Below are positions 2,942-18,286 of a stretch of DNA of 18,286 nt, piece after piece (the stretch's first letter is position 1; the number at the start of each line of letters is the position of its first letter). The position numbers and the translations under genes are program-made. Source of the stretch: Paludibacter sp. (GTDB lineage Bacteria; Bacteroidota; Bacteroidia; Bacteroidales; Paludibacteraceae). The notes below the pieces were generated by a model. The model worked only from the letters and a program-made list of their open reading frames with translations. It was not told the DNA's origin and did not search any database. The stretch is from positions 1 through 18,286 of the forward strand of contig JAQTOL010000012.1 in assembly GCA_028748945.1 (NCBI GenBank), in the 5' to 3' direction.

Positions 2942-3850
2942 TTATTTTTGTCTTGCAGCAATCCATTTCGAGAGTATATTCAGCAAAAGAACAAATCCCA
3001 TAAGAAACAGAGAAGAGCTCCAAATCAGATCCACCATATTCGGATCGTTATAAAATTGCCAGATCAATAAAGGTACAGCACTTACAGGTTTGGCAATATT
3101 CCAGTTGATAGCCGGATTTCCAAGAGTGGTGAGCATCAACGGGGCTGTTTCTCCAAGTATTCTTGAAATGGCCAGTAAAATACCGGTCATCAATCCGCTG
3201 AAACTGGAAGGTATCAAAACCCGCATGACCACTTTATAATAAGGTGTTCCGAGTGCAATGGCCGCTTCTTTCAAGGTGTCTGGAATCATTTTAAGCGATT
3301 CTTCGGTCGAACGGATAATTAATGGCAGCATCATGATGGCCAAAGCAACACTACCGGCCAATACCGAATATCCATGTGTAATTTCAACCACCACCCAAAG
3401 ATATACAATTAATCCGATAACTATGGAAGGTACTCCCTGTAATACATCGGTAATGTCACGAATGAAACCTGCATATTTCTTTTTACTGTTTTCGTACAGG
3501 TAAATTCCGATTAAAACCCCGAATGGAATGGCAATAAGCGATGCGATACCAACCAGGTAAAGCGAACCGGTAATCCCGTTGATAATCCCGCCGGGAATTG
3601 TTTTTCCGCTCATTTTTGCCATCATGGCCTGGAACGTGTCGGGAGGCGATTGCGTAAAAAATGCCCAGTTAATCTGATGATAACCTTTGAGAATCATACT
3701 TCCGATGATTAAGACAACCATGGAAATGGTGAGCAGGGAAAATATTACAATGCCGATTAAAAATAGTCTGTCTTTCAGTTTCCTTCCGGAAAAAAGATCA
3801 GGAATCAGTTCAGTTACTTTTTTCCCCGCTAGAATGTTTGTTTGATTCAT
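2942..3850 (-). CDS. pstA: Phosphate ABC transporter permease PstA
   Basis: This 302-aa inner-membrane permease has about six hydrophobic segments (roughly residues 28-53, 90-115, 135-157, 160-182, 210-234 and 275-297). The cytoplasmic EAA loop that contacts PstB is visible as KEAAIALGTPYYKVVMRVL near residues 194-212. The ILGETAPLML stretch near 231-240 is typical of PstA. It forms the heterodimeric channel with PstC. Its ATG overlaps the pstC stop codon by 4 bases (ATGA at 3850-3847), which indicates translational coupling and one-to-one production of the two permease halves. Confidence 0.96.
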   Translation of the reverse strand: MNQTNILAGKKVTELIPDLFSGRKLKDRLFLIGIVIFSLLTISMVVLIIGSMILKGYHQINWAFFTQSPPDTFQAMMAKMSGKTIPGGIINGITGSLYLVGIASLIAIPFGVLIGIYLYENSKKKYAGFIRDITDVLQGVPSIVIGLIVYLWVVVEITHGYSVLAGSVALAIMMLPLIIRSTEESLKMIPDTLKEAAIALGTPYYKVVMRVLIPSSFSGLMTGILLAISRILGETAPLMLTTLGNPAINWNIAKPVSAVPLLIWQFYNDPNMVDLIWSSSLFLMGFVLLLNILSKWIAARQK

Positions 3851-4701
3851 CGGTTTAATTTTTTAATAATGAATTTCCCTACGGCATTAATAATGGTTGT
3901 CATTACAAACAAGAGTAATCCGATCTCAATTAAAGAACTCAATTGCAATCCGCTGGCTTCGCCAAACTGGTTGGCTATCACGCTGGACATAGTATTCCCT
4001 GTACTGAAAAGCCCGGTAGGCATTCGGTTCGAGTTTCCAATCAACATGGTAACTGCCAGTGTCTCGCCTAAGGCACGACCGAAAGCTAGAATGTAACTTG
4101 CGGTAATTCCCGAACGGGCATTGGGAAGTATAACATTCCAGATGACTTCGAGCCTTGTAGCTCCCAGCGAATAGGCCGCTTCTTTCAGTTCATTGGATAC
4201 CATTGAAATACTTGTATTGCTTAATGATGTTGCATAAGGAATAATCATGAAAGCCAGGATAAGGCCGGAAGTGAAAATCCCGTAACCCTGGTCACTCAAG
4301 CCGATGGACACAATAAACGGACGCAGGATATAAAAACCCCATAAACCAAAAATGATGGAAGGGATTCCTGCCAGCAAATCGACCATGGTACTTACTACCG
4401 ATGCTATTCGTGTATTTTTGAAGTATTCGGCAACAAACAATGAGGTTGAAAATGCCAGGGGTACCGCGATGAGTAAGGCAAGTACAGAAGTCAACAAGGT
4501 TCCTACTATAAATAATAATGCTCCGTATTGTTCTCTGCCCTGCGTTGGATCCCATTCCGATGAAATGATAAACTTCCAGCCAAATTCATGAAAAGAAGGC
4601 ATCGCTCCCCGAACCAACGAGAAAACCATACCTCCTGAAATTAGTAAAATCAGCAACGATGCTGTGAATAAAATATACTTTAAAATTTTATCACTATTCA
4701 C
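3847..4701 (-). CDS. pstC: Phosphate ABC transporter permease PstC
   Basis: This 284-aa integral membrane permease is the partner of PstA. About six membrane segments are visible (roughly residues 6-30, 62-90, 102-127, 143-160, 200-222 and 255-280). The EAA loop KEAAYSLGATRLEVIWNVILP lies near residues 173-193, and FGRALGETLAVTMLIGN follows near 206-222, both typical of PstC. The start is GTG at 4701. An upstream ATG at 4709 is out of frame, and no other in-frame ATG precedes the first membrane segment. The 93-bp gap to pstS holds a large imperfect hairpin, which may let pstS mRNA accumulate above pstCAB mRNA. Confidence 0.95.
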   Translation of the reverse strand: MNSDKILKYILFTASLLILLISGGMVFSLVRGAMPSFHEFGWKFIISSEWDPTQGREQYGALLFIVGTLLTSVLALLIAVPLAFSTSLFVAEYFKNTRIASVVSTMVDLLAGIPSIIFGLWGFYILRPFIVSIGLSDQGYGIFTSGLILAFMIIPYATSLSNTSISMVSNELKEAAYSLGATRLEVIWNVILPNARSGITASYILAFGRALGETLAVTMLIGNSNRMPTGLFSTGNTMSSVIANQFGEASGLQLSSLIEIGLLLFVMTTIINAVGKFIIKKLNR

Positions 4702-4720
4702 TTGAACATGTATTTATTAA

Positions 4721-4778
4721 ATTCAATTGAGCCAATTAAACCGTATCAATTGACAGTTTAATTGACTCCTTATTGAAT
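4721..4778 (-). other. Stem-loop between pstS and pstC
   Basis: The arms 4729-4741 and 4756-4768 match at 12 of 13 positions around a 14-nt loop. A further outer pairing (4721-4727 with 4772-4778) extends the stem. No T-run follows on the minus strand, so this looks like an mRNA-stabilising or processing hairpin at the 3' end of pstS rather than a full terminator. Confidence 0.55.
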
Positions 4779-4794
4779 TCAAAGGATTTGAATC

Positions 4795-5835
4795 TTATTT
4801 TAATACTGGTTTTCCGTTATACGTTACGGTGCGTAAAATTGCATTTGCTTTCTTAACCACGGCTTCCGGAAGTGAAGCGTAATTAACTGTCGGAGCAATT
4901 TTTTGAGCATCGGGAGTTAACATCCAGCTTAATAATTTAAGTGTTGCTTCAGCCTGGGCTAGTGTACGGTTATTATAGTTTTGTTCTTTGTAAATAATGA
5001 TCCAGGTAAATCCGGCAATCGGATAAGCATAAGGAGCATCCGAATTTGTCAGCATCACCCGTGTGTCGGCAGGAATTGTACCTTGTCCGGCAGCACTGAT
5101 AGAGGCCATACTTGGTTTGATAAATTTGCCGGCTTTGTTTTTTAAATAGGCAGTTGGAATTTTTTGAGCAAATGAATACTCTGATCCGACATAGCCGATA
5201 GAACCTTTCGTTTGGCTGATAGTTCCGGCAACTCCGGGATTTCCTTTTGCACCAACTCCAACAGGCCAGTTGACCGTTTTTCCGGATCCAAGTTTGTTAG
5301 CCCATTCTTTGCTTACCTTGGTCAGGTAATCGGTAAACATATTGGTGGTACCGCTACCATCCGAACGATAGACTACCGTAATAGGCATATCAGGGAACTT
5401 AACACTTGCATTTAGTTTTTTCAATGAAGGATCATTCCAGTTTTTTATTTTACCCAATAAAATATTGACCAGTACATCGGATGTCAAATTAATAGATTGA
5501 ATTCCGGGAAGATTAAATGCTACGACTACAGCACCGCTACAGGTCGGCATGTGAACAATTGTTGCCGGCATTTCCGCTAATTCTTTATCGCTGAGGAAAG
5601 CATCGGAAGCTCCAAAATCAACCACTTTGTCCGAAAGGCTGCGAATACCGCCTCCCGATCCGATTCCACCGTAAGTTACTTTTACTCCGGTCGATTCAGT
5701 ATATTTTTGAAATGCCATATTGTAGAACGGCAGTGGAAATGTTGCTCCTGCACCCGATAAGGATTGTCCAAAAGCAGACGAACTAATGGTTGCTAAAATA
5801 GCAACGAGTGATAAAAATAAACTTTTCTTTTTCAT
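4795..5835 (-). CDS. pstS: Phosphate-binding protein PstS
   Basis: This 346-aa secreted phosphate-binding protein delivers substrate to PstC-PstA. A signal peptide is visible at about residues 1-23 (KKK, hydrophobic core, SSAFG before Q24). Phosphate-binding motifs of the PstS family are GAGATFP (28-34), YGGIGSGGGI (55-64), DFGASD (73-78) and RSDGSGTT (157-164). There is no lipobox cysteine, so it is expected to be soluble in the periplasm. The gene follows the porin gene by 49 AT-rich bases with no promoter or Pho-type sites of its own. It is therefore most likely transcribed from the operator-controlled promoter upstream of the porin. Confidence 0.97.
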   Translation of the reverse strand: MKKKSLFLSLVAILATISSSAFGQSLSGAGATFPLPFYNMAFQKYTESTGVKVTYGGIGSGGGIRSLSDKVVDFGASDAFLSDKELAEMPATIVHMPTCSGAVVVAFNLPGIQSINLTSDVLVNILLGKIKNWNDPSLKKLNASVKFPDMPITVVYRSDGSGTTNMFTDYLTKVSKEWANKLGSGKTVNWPVGVGAKGNPGVAGTISQTKGSIGYVGSEYSFAQKIPTAYLKNKAGKFIKPSMASISAAGQGTIPADTRVMLTNSDAPYAYPIAGFTWIIIYKEQNYNNRTLAQAEATLKLLSWMLTPDAQKIAPTVNYASLPEAVVKKANAILRTVTYNGKPVLK

Positions 5836-5884: not shown

Positions 5885-6895
5885 TTAGAAATTCATTCCG
5901 ACACTCAGATTAATGCTTGAAGCAGTGGTCCCTGATGTCAGACTCGAATAGCGATAATTGGGTGTCAGCTGGATTCCTTTTACAGGCGTGTATTCAATAC
6001 CGGCCATATAAACCTGTCCGTCGGTTGAAGTATTCCAGCCTGTTGTTGCAGTACCTACTTTAGTTGACATTAAATCATCAAACCGGGCGATAGCTGTAAA
6101 TTGTTTTGCAAATGGTAGTGTTCCGTAAACCGATAAACCCGACCAATTGTGATCTGCTGTGTTTTTATTTCCCATCTGAGTGTTGTATTCAGCTGCAAGG
6201 GTAGCTTTATCACTCTTATAACCAACAAATACGTTGAAAGAAGACTGGGCAACTTTTGAACTGGCATACGATTGTTTATTCATATAATCATAGTAAACAC
6301 GTGCATAAAGATTTTTAATGGGTTGAGCGGTCAGTACGATTGCAAATTGCATGGTACAGTCGGCCTGTACTTTCTTATATCCTTCGCCGTTATAAACTGC
6401 AAGATCCAGACTTAGTTCAGGTATAAACTGAAGGTTTACTTTAGCACCAAGATCTGCACTGTTTCCGAAACCATATTGATCCTGAAATGATTTATACATA
6501 TAACGTTTTCCCCAAAAAGATTCCTGTAAGCTAAACATTGAAGTACCAATCATACCTAAATCAGCTTTCACCATACCGTGTGAATATTCAGCATAAGCAT
6601 TTTTCAGAAATGCTGTAAATGCGGAAGGATTCAACCCTGCTGAGCCGGCAATATCAAAAACTACTTTTCCTGAAAAATCACGGCTGAAATTATAGCCATA
6701 ACCAAAATAGGCCCGCGATACTTCAAATGCATTATTACTCTTCCCGCTGGAAGTTGAATTTGAGAAATCACTAAATACTGTTACAATCGGTTTTCCATTT
6801 GGAGTAAATTTTTCTTCTACATTACTCTGATTTTGTGCGAAAACACTTGTACTGATAAAAATAAGCAAAAAAGCACTTGTTAATTTATTCTTCAT
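5885..6895 (-). CDS. Phosphate-selective porin (OprO/OprP family)
   Basis: This 336-aa outer-membrane beta-barrel begins with a signal peptide (MKNKLTSAFLLIFISTSVFA, about residues 1-20). Its body has alternating aromatic/polar beta-strand character, for example SRAYFGYGYNFSRDFSGKVVFD, and it ends in GMNF with the C-terminal phenylalanine typical of barrel proteins. The overall pattern fits the phosphate-selective porin O/P family. Being first gene in front of pstS supports phosphate as substrate: the porin would pass phosphate to the periplasm, where PstS captures it. The promoter at 6935-6942, with four phased Pho-type sites upstream (6952-6991), predicts a leader of about 35 nt before ATG 6895. 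Specificity for orthophosphate over polyphosphate or organic phosphates cannot be judged here. Confidence 0.88.
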   Translation of the reverse strand: MKNKLTSAFLLIFISTSVFAQNQSNVEEKFTPNGKPIVTVFSDFSNSTSSGKSNNAFEVSRAYFGYGYNFSRDFSGKVVFDIAGSAGLNPSAFTAFLKNAYAEYSHGMVKADLGMIGTSMFSLQESFWGKRYMYKSFQDQYGFGNSADLGAKVNLQFIPELSLDLAVYNGEGYKKVQADCTMQFAIVLTAQPIKNLYARVYYDYMNKQSYASSKVAQSSFNVFVGYKSDKATLAAEYNTQMGNKNTADHNWSGLSVYGTLPFAKQFTAIARFDDLMSTKVGTATTGWNTSTDGQVYMAGIEYTPVKGIQLTPNYRYSSLTSGTTASSINLSVGMNF

Positions 6896-6934
6896 TTATA
6901 GATGAATTAAATTGTACCCGCTTGTTTACAATGG

Positions 6935-6991
6935 CAAAAGTATAGTGGAACTATTACAGACAAATTAAGCATATGTTACAATGGTGTTACA
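6935..6991 (-). promoter_or_regulatory. Pho-type operator and promoter A, driving porin-pstSCAB-phoU
   Basis: Read on the minus strand there are four 7-bp sites on an exact 11-bp period: TGTAACA (6991-6985), TGTAACA (6980-6974), CTTAATT (6969-6963) and TGTAATA (6958-6952). A 9-bp gap and the -7 box TACTTTTG (6942-6935) follow. Phased 7-bp direct repeats with 4-bp spacers are the known layout of PhoB boxes, which replace the -35/-33 element. The start codon lies 40 bp downstream of the -7 box. Confidence 0.75.
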
Positions 6992-7140
6992 ATTATTTGA
7001 TGCTTCAACCTGATCGAAAGTTACATTCATAATCTTGTTCTTAAAACAAACTTTGACAATAAGTTATTTTAAATCGGAAAAGAATAAACAAATTTGAAAT
7101 TGAATTCAAAGCAGATGTTGTCTTTTCACTTTATCGGTTA

Positions 7141-7197
7141 CAAAATTAGTTCGATAGTATTTCAACAAAATTAAGAGAATGTTACAGTAATGTTACG
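7141..7197 (-). promoter_or_regulatory. Pho-type operator and promoter B, distal copy on the porin side
   Basis: The layout is identical to copy A on the minus strand: CGTAACA (7197-7191), TGTAACA (7186-7180), CTTAATT (7175-7169), TGAAATA (7164-7158), a 9-bp gap, then TAATTTTG (7148-7141). It points toward the porin gene but lies about 245 bp from its start. It would make a second, longer transcript, or a short RNA ending before promoter A. I see no convincing open reading frame between B and A. Confidence 0.65.
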
Positions 7198-7310
7198 TTT
7201 AATGCTGTTTACCGTGTTCTGTTTTGTACTAAGAGTAAGATAAAATATATGATTTATAGATCAGTAAGCCGATTAAGTCAGTTCCAATCACATTTTTTAT
7301 TGCTTACGAA

Positions 7311-7372
7311 TGACATATGAATGTTACGTGAATGGATTTATTTAGAAAGAAAAATGTAACAGAAATGAAACA
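7311..7372. promoter_or_regulatory. Additional partial Pho-type half-sites
   Basis: TGACATA (7311) and TGTTACG (7322) are 11 bp apart. TGTAACA (7355) and TGAAACA (7366) are also 11 bp apart and in phase with the first pair (7322 to 7355 is 33 bp). No TAnnTTTG box lies at the 9-bp spacing on either strand. These may be auxiliary binding sites or decayed operators. Confidence 0.35.
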
Positions 7373-7423
7373 GCGGCGAATAAAACCTTGTCTGTTTTTA
7401 ATAATAAACAAGGAATTGTTATT

Positions 7424-7480
7424 CGTAACTCTATTGTCACAGTTCTTTATTTTCATTGAAACAGATATGAATTACTTTTG
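7424..7480 (+). promoter_or_regulatory. Pho-type operator and promoter C, driving the TonB receptor
   Basis: On the plus strand the sites CGTAACT (7424-7430), TGTCACA (7435-7441), TTTATTT (7446-7452) and TGAAACA (7457-7463) keep the 11-bp period. They are followed by a 9-bp gap and TACTTTTG (7473-7480), the same -7 octamer as promoter A. The receptor ATG is 28 bp further on. The shared spacing with A and B argues for one common activator. Confidence 0.68.
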
Positions 7481-7508
7481 CGGCGTATAAATAAAGATTA
7501 AAATCCAG

Positions 7509-15449: not shown

Positions 15450-15530
15450 ACACATATCCGGCTATATATCGGATATGTGTTATTGAATTCAACTTATAAA
15501 TGGAATATATGCGCAATTGCGTATATATTT
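15450..15530. other. Two hairpins immediately upstream of the first cassette boundary
   Basis: A perfect 11-bp stem (15450-15460 with 15470-15480, 9-nt loop) is followed by a near-perfect palindrome centred on CGCAATTGCG (about 15507-15528). They lie just before the cassette boundary GTTATGC at 15534. This block may be the preceding recombination site (attC of an earlier cassette, or attI), but it does not show the clear R''/L'' pairing seen in the two later sites. Confidence 0.4.
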
Positions 15531-15553
15531 GGTGTTATGCGGCATAGTAAAAA

Positions 15554-16327
15554 ATGAAAAACAACCCTTATATTATGATTAAGACATACGGAAAAGATAT
15601 TATTGGTATTGGACTTTCAGCTTTGATAATAATCATTTCGTTCTTTCCGATTGAAGATTTTATATCACGGGAAATACCAATTCTAAAAGTAATTTGGATT
15701 TGGGATAAATTAGATATTTACTCCCTTGTTTTAATTCCAATTGCTATTTTATTTTACACTTTCGGAAAATTAAGAATATCACTTACTATCGTTTACAGTT
15801 ATATTCTTATTCAATTCCATTTTTTTAGAAATCTACCATGGGATTTCCAAAATCATCTTGTATTGACTCTGGCATTCATTATTGCGCTTATAGCATTTAT
15901 ATTTGGGGTATACTTTTTTAGCAATGATAAGTATATACGAAAGAAAAGTATTTTGAAATTTAAATATGTCTGGATTGTAAATTACATATTAATAGCATTG
16001 GCATTATTTATTGCTTCATGGGAATTTAACACCTCTATTGCTTCATTAATTTACGTATTACTTTTAGCTTCTATTATATTGACGGCAATCCATAATCCCA
16101 AAAACTGGAAAATTAGATTTTTGATTTTTTCCACGTTATATATTGTAATTCAAACATTCTATTTAAGTTGTTATACGCATTTTTATGGTGACCTTGGTTT
16201 ACTTGATTTTTCGATTAATAATATGTGGACAAATTGTTCTAAGAATTATCTTTGGTTAATCTCTGGTCTGATAATTTTGTATATGGCTATTAACAAGATA
16301 AATACACTGTATAACAAAACTGTTTGA
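15554..16327 (+). CDS. Orphan multi-pass membrane protein, cassette-borne
   Basis: This 257-aa protein is composed largely of hydrophobic helices. I count about seven membrane segments (roughly residues 14-32, 53-70, 73-92, 101-122, 138-158, 162-180 and 187-207, with a last one near 233-250). No catalytic motif or known family signature is visible. Charged residues are sparse and fall in short loops such as NDKYIRKKSILKFK. The gene is visibly more AT-rich, with more ATA/TTA/AAA codons, than the phosphate and TonB genes, which fits acquisition by transfer. It starts 20 bp after a cassette boundary, as cassette genes commonly do. Given the abortive-infection-like neighbour, a defence or immunity role is possible but not shown by the sequence. 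Confidence 0.75.
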   Translation: MKNNPYIMIKTYGKDIIGIGLSALIIIISFFPIEDFISREIPILKVIWIWDKLDIYSLVLIPIAILFYTFGKLRISLTIVYSYILIQFHFFRNLPWDFQNHLVLTLAFIIALIAFIFGVYFFSNDKYIRKKSILKFKYVWIVNYILIALALFIASWEFNTSIASLIYVLLLASIILTAIHNPKNWKIRFLIFSTLYIVIQTFYLSCYTHFYGDLGLLDFSINNMWTNCSKNYLWLISGLIILYMAINKINTLYNKTV

Positions 16328-16757
16328 TTGTGTTTTTATTGAAAAAACTAAATACGACTTACAGACTCTTTCCGCTTTTTAATGCAAATTGGTAGACTAA
16401 ACGAGAGAAAACAAAATAAACTCTCTCTGACAACTCGAAAGAAGACAAACCCGTTTCGAGTTGTTGAGAGAATGCTTACAAGGAAATTTTTTTGACTTTG
16501 ATTTTGCTCATTTCGACAGCTAGAAAAAGAAAGAAAAACGACTTTGATATTTGAAAACTTAAAATTTATTCGTTAATTTGTAACATTTATAGGCGGTTGG
16601 ACATGAAGAAAAGAACGAAAAATCAACTTGACTTTGTGAGTGACGAACATTTTCGTGCTTTGACAGCTTTGTGCTGACTAACTGGAAAGTGAAACGAACA
16701 GACTTTTAGCATTTAATCAACTGAAATAAAACACGACAGGAAAGCACAAAACTACGA
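16328..16757 (+). other. Non-coding tail of cassette 1
   Basis: No credible gene was found in these 430 bases. A strong hairpin (11-bp perfect stem, 16430-16440 with 16454-16464, 13-nt loop) is present. A T-run at about 16487-16493 is too far from it for a standard terminator. A 24-codon frame from ATG 16604 is too short to support. Confidence 0.5.
16551..16580 (+). promoter_or_regulatory. Candidate cassette-borne promoter
   Basis: TTG (16551-16553), a 19-bp spacer, then TTAATTTG (16573-16580) match the Bacteroidota -33/-7 layout with one mismatch in the -7 box. It points toward the second cassette and could help express its gene across the attC. Confidence 0.3.
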
Positions 16758-16892
16758 CCGCATAACACACGCCTATGCTCACCTGCTGGCTGACATGCAC
16801 TTAGCAGTATTTGCTCCCGCATTCACTTTTTCGCTTTGCGAAAGTGAAAGCTCCCGCAAACCGCAGGATGCGCATAGCCTCGGTCGTTAGCA
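16758..16892 (+). repeat. attC-like recombination site 1
   Basis: This is an imperfect palindrome of about 133 bp. R''-like GCATAAC (16760-16766) is followed after 6 nt by CTATGC (16773-16778), which pairs with GCATAG (16872-16877). After 8 nt comes R'-like GTTAGCA (16886-16892). Inside, CCTGC (16782-16786) pairs with GCAGG (16863-16867), and a central hairpin around 16822-16848 (TTCAC...GTGAA, TTTCGC/GCGAAA) closes the fold. Length, inner arms and unpaired spacers all resemble long attC sites. Confidence 0.6.
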
Positions 16893-16937
16893 GCAATCCA
16901 AAAAAAACAGTAGACTTCTAAATAACGTGAACACAAT

Positions 16938-18143
16938 ATGAGAATATTTTTATGGATAATATCGGTATTACTGATATTTGTAGGAATTACAGTAAGTTTT
17001 ATTTTTTTTAGAAATTTATCGTTAGAGTATACTGTGAATGGTAACAGTGAACTTTTACTTGATAAAACTGGGCAAGTTGGAGACTTTATTGGAGGAGTTG
17101 TTGGAACTATATTTTCATTAGCGGGTTTTGCGATTTTAATCATAACACTTTCTGCACAAACTCAAGTTTCATATACAGAGCAATTTGAGAATAAATTTTT
17201 TGAGCTAATTCGTTTACATAGAGAAAATCTTAACGAAATATCAATTACAAGGAAATCCAAAAATGAAGAAGGAACATTAATTGATTTCAAGTTTACTGGG
17301 AGACAAGTATTTAAAATTGTATTAGATGACTTTCTTACATGTAGAAATGAGCTAAGACAGTATTTTCATAAATTTGAATTACACGAAATTTATGAAAATG
17401 AGTACCTAAAACATATAAGTGAGATATTAAACGTTGAAGAAAGTCACATAAGAGTTAGAACAATAGCGAGAATTGATATTGCTTACTGTATTGTTTTTTA
17501 TGGTGTTGGAAACGAGGGATATAAATTGTTATGCGAGATATTCAACAAGAGATATAAGAAAGATTTTTATATTGGACTTCTTAATTACATTCAGATGAAA
17601 CCTATAAAACATAGTCGGTATTGGGAAGAGTGGGATAAATTCAGAAATGTTAACAAAGTAGTTGATAGACTTGTCAACTTAGAGCAAATAATAACTTTAC
17701 GAAGAAAGAATATTGATGAAGCTGATAAAAGAAACCAAAATCAATACTACTATGATACAAATTACATAAAATATTATGGAGGACACCAATTTAGGCTAGG
17801 GCATTATTACAGACATTTATTCCAAACTGTGAAATACGTCAATTCTCAGAACAGACTTAATTTCAAACAAAAATACTTTTATGCAAAAACATTAAGGGCA
17901 CAGCTTTCAACTTATGAACAGGCGTTATTATTTATTAATTCATTGTCTATTTTAGGACATCCATGGGAATTAAACTGTGAATATAAAAAGAGTCACTTTC
18001 TATTTCTAGACAAAAGAAGAAAAGAAAAGAACAAACTTATTACTCGTTATAATTTAATTAAGAATATGCCTGGAACTCAAATGTTTGGAATAGTTTATAC
18101 TCATTATTATCCCAACGTAAAATATGAAATACAAATATTCTGA
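16938..18143 (+). CDS. Putative phage abortive infection protein (putAbiC-like), membrane-anchored
   Basis: This 401-aa protein has two N-terminal membrane segments (about residues 3-25 and 48-72) and a large cytoplasmic domain. The region GDFIGGVVGTIFSLAGF (48-64) followed by QFENKFFELIRLHRENLNEI (82-101) matches my recollection of the start of the putAbiC (putative phage abortive infection) family. The later LRAQLSTYEQALLFINSL (about 319-336) and LITRYNLIKNM near the C-terminus also fit. No nuclease or other catalytic motif is recognisable, so the killing mechanism is unknown. The gene is AT-rich, lies inside the second cassette and has its own attC 11 bp after the stop. Its start ATG 16938 is about 50 bp inside the cassette. 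Family assignment is from memory of motif pattern and should be confirmed by profile search. Confidence 0.75.
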   Translation: MRIFLWIISVLLIFVGITVSFIFFRNLSLEYTVNGNSELLLDKTGQVGDFIGGVVGTIFSLAGFAILIITLSAQTQVSYTEQFENKFFELIRLHRENLNEISITRKSKNEEGTLIDFKFTGRQVFKIVLDDFLTCRNELRQYFHKFELHEIYENEYLKHISEILNVEESHIRVRTIARIDIAYCIVFYGVGNEGYKLLCEIFNKRYKKDFYIGLLNYIQMKPIKHSRYWEEWDKFRNVNKVVDRLVNLEQIITLRRKNIDEADKRNQNQYYYDTNYIKYYGGHQFRLGHYYRHLFQTVKYVNSQNRLNFKQKYFYAKTLRAQLSTYEQALLFINSLSILGHPWELNCEYKKSHFLFLDKRRKEKNKLITRYNLIKNMPGTQMFGIVYTHYYPNVKYEIQIF

Positions 18144-18154
18144 CAAAATGGACT

Positions 18155-18283
18155 GCTGCTAACATCTTAGTGTTTTATTCATCGTTTTCGTGAGACAAAG
18201 TTAACTAAAAGTCACAATATCCCAAATAAAAACAAAATTTATTTAATGCACGGACGAAAATGGTGAATAAAACAGAGTTGAAC
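18155..18283 (+). repeat. attC-like recombination site 2
   Basis: This imperfect palindrome of about 129 bp begins GCTGCTAAC (18155-18163). TGTTTTATTCA (18171-18181) pairs perfectly with TGAATAAAACA (18264-18274), and TTTTCGT (18185-18191) with ACGAAAA (18254-18260). It ends at GTTGAAC (18277-18283), an exact GTTRRRY core. The core belongs to the next cassette, which runs out of the window after three bases. Confidence 0.6.
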
Positions 18284-18286
18284 GGG

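Follow-up and report, generated by a model that had tools for sequence, protein, structure and literature searches.

The 3' end of an 18,286-nucleotide stretch of Paludibacter sp. DNA (the window; the entire contig C12, JAQTOL010000012.1, of a 3.46 Mb genome in 540 contigs, 85% complete) is very probably an integron-type cassette array that starts from an attI-like palindrome without an adjacent integrase. It would belong to a class of chromosomal integrons of the Bacteroidota, the cassettes of which are handled by one clade of tyrosine recombinases. At the level of sequence, each cassette is delimited by GTTR... and an imperfect hairpin, the outer arm of which is specific to that cassette and complementary to its own start, and in relatives such arrays lie behind the gene of that one recombinase clade, in the same direction. 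The linked recombinase would be the enzyme that moves the cassettes.

Cassettes of the window

The original prediction had described two integron-type cassettes recognised by self-complementary ends, each with its own attC palindrome at the 3' side. The boundaries lie where it had placed them, with GTT at 15534 and 16886, AAC ends at 16766 and 18163, and GTTGAAC at 18277. The ends form two pairs that differ from each other, as claimed: GTTATGCGG at 15534 is complementary at 9/9 positions to CCGCATAAC ending at 16766, and GTTAGCAGCAATCC at 16886 at 13/14 positions to GGACTGCTGCTAAC ending at 18163 (Table 1). Chains of such units were scored by a rule that takes GTT with the six following bases, their reverse complement further on, 35-220 bases and then the next unit, exact 9-mers being anchored on GTT/AAC. 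Since the chains rest on exact 9-mers, single low-complexity pairs (GTTTTT...) may be chance. A chain of two units by the same rule was reached by 4 of 500 first-order shuffles of 15501-18286. Further GTT-bounded units were indeed found in the same genome, three paired ones on contig C75 and two on C53, and contig C114 carries two sites without a paired unit.

Other parts of the prediction survived in part. From the three cores of the window only the last, GTTGAAC, fits the integron core consensus GTTRRRY, and GTTATGC and GTTAGCA do not. The DNA was said to be more AT-rich than the rest, which is true only on average: GC is 0.27-0.37 in 500-base windows from 15501 onward and mostly 0.35-0.48 upstream, but it is not unique to the 3' stretch, because upstream values dip to 0.31 (around 1000-1500) and to 0.27 (around 6750-7500). 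The integron-type character itself is upheld for cassette 1 by its hairpin family, self-complementary ends, covariation and attI-like palindrome, but not in the form of a canonical GTTRRRY attC. Within the set of 60 relatives, the protein of cassette 2 had no match at E<=1e-20 in the other 59 genomes.

Table 1. Positions of the array features in the window
Feature	Position	Strand	Remarks
attI-like site	15504..15533	+	26-nt near-palindrome (15504-15529) and 4-nt spacer TGGT, directly before the GTT of cassette 1
Cassette 1	15534..16885	+	from the GTT start through the base preceding the next GTT
Open reading frame of cassette 1, 257 aa	15554..16327	+	no Pfam family at E<=0.001
attC-like site 1	16758..16885	+	R'' CCGCATAAC (16758-16766), hairpin core up to the GTT at 16886
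Cassette 2 body	16886..18163	+	ends 13/14 self-complementary; probably no in-line attC after it
Open reading frame of cassette 2, 401 aa	16938..18143	+	putAbiC domain PF16872, 57.9 bits
Element K (hairpin, promoter-like TTG..TAACTTTG)	18164..18286	-	GTT end faces cassette 2; contig end

The attC-like hairpin family

The palindrome of cassette 1 (16755-16900) gave eight BLAST matches in its own genome, a count that includes the query; three lie in tandem on C75, and the longer matches of the hairpin core were 78-98% identical. A covariance model built from 24 sites contains 31 consensus pairs, ten of which are changed on both sides; three neighbouring pairs, for example, switch C-G/U-A, U-A/C-G and G-C/U-A. 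The window site, itself among the 24, scored 158.5 bits (16761-16892). With at most 56 candidates scored per genome, the model matched nine sites in this genome, two only weakly, and also had matches in 34 of the 60 relatives, where the highest counts per genome were 50, 48 and 44 (up to 50 within the genus). These sites are imperfect palindromes that fold, like attC, with R and L boxes and an asymmetric spacer, as indicated for the window's site 1 by RNA folding energies, and other families have the identical hairpin layout with different core sequences.

The boundaries were analyzed by setting the bases 3' of each site against those 5' of the site that followed on the same strand within 3 kb, using 161 BLAST-defined sites on 49 contig stretches for which 133 left and 101 right flanks were found. 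Complementarity over 9-10 bases from GTT/AAC was present in 38 of 57 adjacent pairs, against 2.3% in the all-against-all comparison, a figure that includes the true pairs; because the flanks were located by pattern, some pairs may be misplaced. A start complementary to the cassette's own end is what marks a cassette that brings its recombination site along, and a copied repeat would not show it. The inner stem, which was not a selection criterion, exceeded the 95% level of mismatched halves in 64/78 sites. Chain-defined cassette starts fit GTTR in 72/78 cases and the full GTTRRRY in only 6/78.

Arrays behind the recombinase gene

The tyrosine recombinase of the relatives is of the XerA type, about 345-590 aa long, usually with one to three N-terminal HARP-like repeats and without the IntI-specific insertion (the I2 domain). 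The search found 555 relatives, including Arundinibacter, Spirosoma, Runella, Algoriphagus, Belliella, Gillisia, Maribacter and Seonamhaeicola, and the proteins and contigs nearest to the relatives' recombinases are labelled Paludibacter, Bacteroidales and other Bacteroidota. From these, 80 loci were kept as a first set, of which 47 were testable downstream, having a long enough stretch, and 44 upstream. Chains of at least four cassettes were found downstream in 20 of the 47, the longest, of 12 units, in Flavobacteriales bacterium ALC-1; upstream chains never exceeded two, and 20 shuffles of each locus never gave more than three. A second set of 40 loci (20 with longer and 20 with shorter frames) was hand-picked from the phylum-wide search for long contigs. 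Here chains of at least four cassettes occurred in 11/21 repeat-bearing and 2/18 repeat-less loci, with at most two units upstream; L286, with 297 bases downstream, was left out, L270 counts as repeat-bearing once its frame is read from the true start, and L256 (4-5 bits) counts as repeat-less.

The chain began within about 125 bp of the gene end in 14/20 chain-bearing loci of the first set and within 120 bp in 8/11 of the second. Among recombinase loci, all 17 covariance-model matches, found in 11 of the 37 loci given, were on the strand of the recombinase, and the gene is therefore read toward the array. Contig ends at 1 kb or less were met downstream of the recombinase match in 34/80 loci, against 4/80 upstream, as expected because repeats would cause such breaks.

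The near-palindrome directly before the first cassette of the window scored 9.5, compared with a mean of 5.9 and a maximum of 8.5 in 15 shuffles. In 25 of 33 sequences, among them the window, a palindrome ending 2-9 nt before the first GTT scored no lower than the 95% level of the shuffles; in the relatives it is placed between the recombinase gene and the first GTT. Within the genus, the same layout is visible by eye behind the gene in G017, G023, G025 and G031. G016, a genome of a single contig that yielded no such gene, has it ahead of its first cassette, with a palindrome closely similar to that of G031. The palindrome resembles attI by its position, and its action as attI is putative. Since it precedes the first GTT, the array of the window would start at an attI-like site from which the integrase gene was lost or was not assembled.

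The second hairpin

The palindrome at the contig end (element K) is probably not the ordinary attC of cassette 2, because in the window its spacers show, by eye, the opposite asymmetry and because it stands inverted before a paired cassette in C53. In reverse complement, the last 127 nt of the window equal the start of C53 (L016 1-127); there the element precedes a paired cassette with attC, and in the window, inverted, it adjoins cassette 2. The assignment of both 3' palindromes as the attC sites of their cassettes thus stood for site 1 and is doubtful for the second. In the C53 orientation, element K was found at eight loci from seven relatives, with conserved sequence and hairpin and mostly unrelated DNA upstream (stretches L304-L310, L322 and L394-L401). 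The motif TAnnTTTG is visible in all aligned copies; the fuller promoter motif TTG...TAACTTTG was tested only on the copy of the window. A GTT resembling a cassette start follows the element in 6/8 of these loci, and a paired cassette end or attC lies downstream in 1/8, the hybrid site of G025, some of the downstream stretches being short. A paired cassette end behind element K was found only in the genome's own C53, and a match to the attC model only in C53 and G025. The hybrid site (L307, G025:C175, about 1501-1625) has a 5' half like element K and a 3' half like the attC of the genus, followed by GTTAGGCGG.

It is plausible, if not settled, that element K is an inverted array leader. For the second segment, and for it only, the junction with element K could be an assembly chimera, or a rearrangement that joined the inverted leader to the R'' end of cassette 2, and we see about even chances for this. 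The position of the hairpin at the contig end, its identity in reverse complement with the start of C53, the reversed spacer and the GTT that follows the element in the other orientation all argue for it, whereas cassette 2 has complementary ends like a genuine cassette and, in the relatives, a paired end or attC so rarely follows the element. The junction may have come from recombination on the other strand, from another rearrangement or from the assembly.

The linked recombinase and its alternatives

TIGR02249 aligned with the linked recombinase in two stretches, with 210-220 bits against 265, in seven proteins, and the alignment of the recombinase passes over IntI4 residues 180-245. On the N-terminal repeats HARP (PF07443) gave 12.1-15.5 bits in 3/12 proteins, below its cut-off of 25, and DUF5710, as frequent or more so, gave 9.6-18.3 bits in 6/12 against a cut-off of 26.5; no sequence match over the Pfam cut-off that would identify the repeats as HARP was reached in the 12 proteins. 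A quick tree with 54 repeat-bearing, nine IntI (eight from one close cluster), 13 repeat-less, two XerA and two Xer rows placed the repeat-bearing clade apart from the nine IntI rows and from 10 of 11 repeat-less Bacteroidota recombinases; with support values only from the Shimodaira-Hasegawa-like approximate likelihood ratio test (SH-aLRT), it settles no branching among IntI, the HARP-like clade and other XerA-like recombinases. In the 93-protein set, L105, L106 and L126 repeat, judging by length, the contigs of L062, L063 and L070. In a sample of the phylum, with at most three candidates scored per genome, 110 of 392 genomes matched the recombinase profile at E<=1e-75; this number does not count integrons, and repeat-less relatives that lack arrays are part of it. 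When plasmids and phages were searched with the recombinase, no record covered 80% of the query, and a scan of viral contigs gave 68 loci, mostly of the catalytic half only. The catalytic half of the family shares 37% identity with the integrase of Polaribacter phage Leef_1 (H12, MT732473.1).

The window was predicted to lack an integrase, in agreement with the scan of nine of its 31 listed open reading frames, which found no tyrosine recombinase, and with the integrase-profile search of the genome, which gave none on C12. The standard IntI implied as the missing partner did not appear: a search for intI within the genome gave no IntI match above cut-off, its profile matches being XerC/XerD-like, and a true IntI match was obtained in 1/60 relatives, G042 of the same order (367 bits). 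This canonical IntI (L073 8267-9175) departs from its homologues at the C-terminus, after the HxxRxSFATHLLE region, perhaps by a frameshift.

A canonical IntI integron, with intI missing from the assembly and the HARP-like recombinase as a bystander, is thus very unlikely. The incomplete genome would leave room for such a gene, G042 has one, and IntI proteins assigned by name to Bacteroidales or Bacteroidia exist; but IntI is absent above cut-off from the own genome and from nearly all of the 60 relatives, the attC model has no match at the IntI locus of G042 (E<=1), in many genera it is behind the HARP-like recombinase that the cassettes start, and GTTRRRY fits so few cassette starts. Equally improbable is an action of the host's XerC/XerD, working in trans at the hairpins as Xer proteins do at some integrative elements, with the linked recombinase serving another purpose. 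The own genome does contain XerC- and XerD-like proteins and not the HARP-like recombinase, and it is common for genomes of the set to have the hairpin but no strong match to the recombinase; this would, however, leave the first chain unit so often close behind the recombinase gene, with the palindrome between, in both sets of loci. That the hairpins are an interspersed palindromic family, like repetitive extragenic palindromes (REP) or miniature inverted-repeat transposable elements (MITE), or transposon ends without cassette recombination, is scarcely credible, since a palindromic and well-conserved core would suit such a family but cassette-specific, self-complementary outer arms would not be expected of a copied repeat, the orientation is constant with the recombinase, and other families keep the layout with different cores.

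Several observations weigh against a recombinase clade handling the cassettes. The HARP-like recombinase is absent from the genome's own assembly, itself 85% complete, and a strong match to it (E<=1e-160) occurs in only 14/60 relatives, compared with the hairpin in 34/60. There is no chain of at least four cassettes in 27/47 and 10/21 recombinase loci of the two sets, and the longest chain begins more than 125 bp behind the gene in 6/20 and 3/11 of the chain-bearing ones. Support for the repeat-bearing clade is modest (SH-aLRT 84). L287 and L289 are repeat-less recombinases nested in that clade, yet they have cassette chains with hairpin sites downstream, so the HARP-like repeats are not always needed. 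A promoter motif with -33/-7-like elements, sought as a counterpart of the Pc promoter that drives the first cassettes of canonical integrons, was found in only 8/35 loci and 0 on the reverse strand (shuffle mean 0.4, maximum 3), and none with a -33 element was found before the first cassette of the window. Exchange of cassettes is little documented, because among 88 cassettes compared only three pairs match over 70% of their length, one of them a palindromic self-match.

In the cassette array with its own recombinase clade, which remains the preferred reading, the recombinase would recognise the folded single strand of the attC-like hairpin and exchange one strand next to the GTT. Because the outer arm is variable but paired, structure rather than sequence would be read beyond GTTR. 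Cassettes would be inserted at the attI-like palindrome, the newest first, and the HARP-like repeats may hold the fork or the hairpin, the task that the I2 helix has in IntI.

The tet(X3) module

On Acinetobacter plasmids, the 221-aa recombinase TpnF lies 189 bp before tet(X3) and is 72% identical to residues 333-562 of the family; it is a truncated recombinase corresponding to the 3' end of the family's gene (layout from three records, L391 4028-6049 in NZ_CP041297.1, L392 and L393). Across 50 plasmid records the stretch from TpnF to tet(X3) keeps an identity of at least 99%, and the named relatives of TpnF among the matches listed include Crocinitomicaceae, Spirosoma and Algoriphagus. The gap between both genes contains TATACGCCATTTGGCGTATA followed by seven bases and GTT, that is, an attI-like palindrome, as good as which were 4/200 shuffles; the two other GTTs scored in the gap have no such palindrome, and nearby control GTTs gave 0/25. 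On the right side of tet(X3), no GTT before the gene pairs over at least six bases with an AAC behind it. The gene was considered as a complete cassette and rejected, since the right-hand end fails to pair with the GTT.

Remaining features of the window

The search of the window against Rfam gave no matches, and PADLOC gave none for the nine proteins scanned. On the minus strand, 2942-5835 encodes consecutively a PBP-superfamily substrate-binding protein and two ABC-transporter permeases, an ordinary transport operon.

Comparison with known systems

Bacteroidota have looked integron-poor. They are listed among integron carriers in reviews (PMC8618304, PMC9668308, PMC2426708; all papers cited here are taken in excerpt), and one complete integron of the phylum, that of Salinibacter ruber, is named with IntegronFinder 2.0 (PMC9024848). 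Standard integron searches require an IntI-specific profile (PMC9668308), and cassette capture is held to depend on the I2 helix, which is not known from any other protein (PMC7790495). Among titles and abstracts, with preprints outside the scope, no description of HARP-like integrases or of such Bacteroidota arrays was found. A wider proposal, to which we would give about even odds, is that a second recombinase lineage of the Bacteroidota carries out folded-strand cassette recombination without an I2 helix, using HARP-like repeats that bind the fork or hairpin instead and a palindromic, possibly folded attI; it would have been missed because finders require the IntI profile, and the mobile tet(X3) resistance module would derive from the head of such an integron. 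If true, this widespread class would be a natural test of the requirements of folded-site recombination, would open a pool of cassettes that IntI-profile searches can skip (PMC9668308), and would suggest a route for a tetracycline-inactivating gene out of the Bacteroidota.

The novelty is tempered by the integron-like subgroup of tyrosine recombinases, described as simple recombinases in which the insertion is not fully conserved (PMC8138268). The present family may belong to it; the excerpted text mentions neither HARP-like repeats nor cassette arrays for members without the insertion. From XerA, XerC and XerD the family differs by its repeats, its location at cassette arrays and its separation, in the quick tree, from the IntI rows and most of the repeat-less Bacteroidota recombinases. 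In the integrons of Treponema, intI points the same way as the cassettes and is transcribed toward attI (PMC3607928), so that the integrase gene is read toward the array as in the present class; unlike it, they carry intI, and no HARP-like repeats are mentioned in the excerpt.

With integrons at large (IntI, attI and attC; sedentary chromosomal integrons and clusters of attC sites lacking integron-integrases, CALINs) the present arrays share the array itself, the 3' hairpin R''-L''-...-L'-R', the cassette start complementary to R'' and a putative attachment site at the array head, and arrays without integrase occur in both. They differ in the recombinase, which is of the XerA type, lacks the IntI-specific insertion and usually bears HARP-like repeats at its N-terminus, in a gene read toward the array and a palindromic attI-like site, in a variable outer arm of 9-10 bp, and in a core that is GTTR instead of GTTRRRY.

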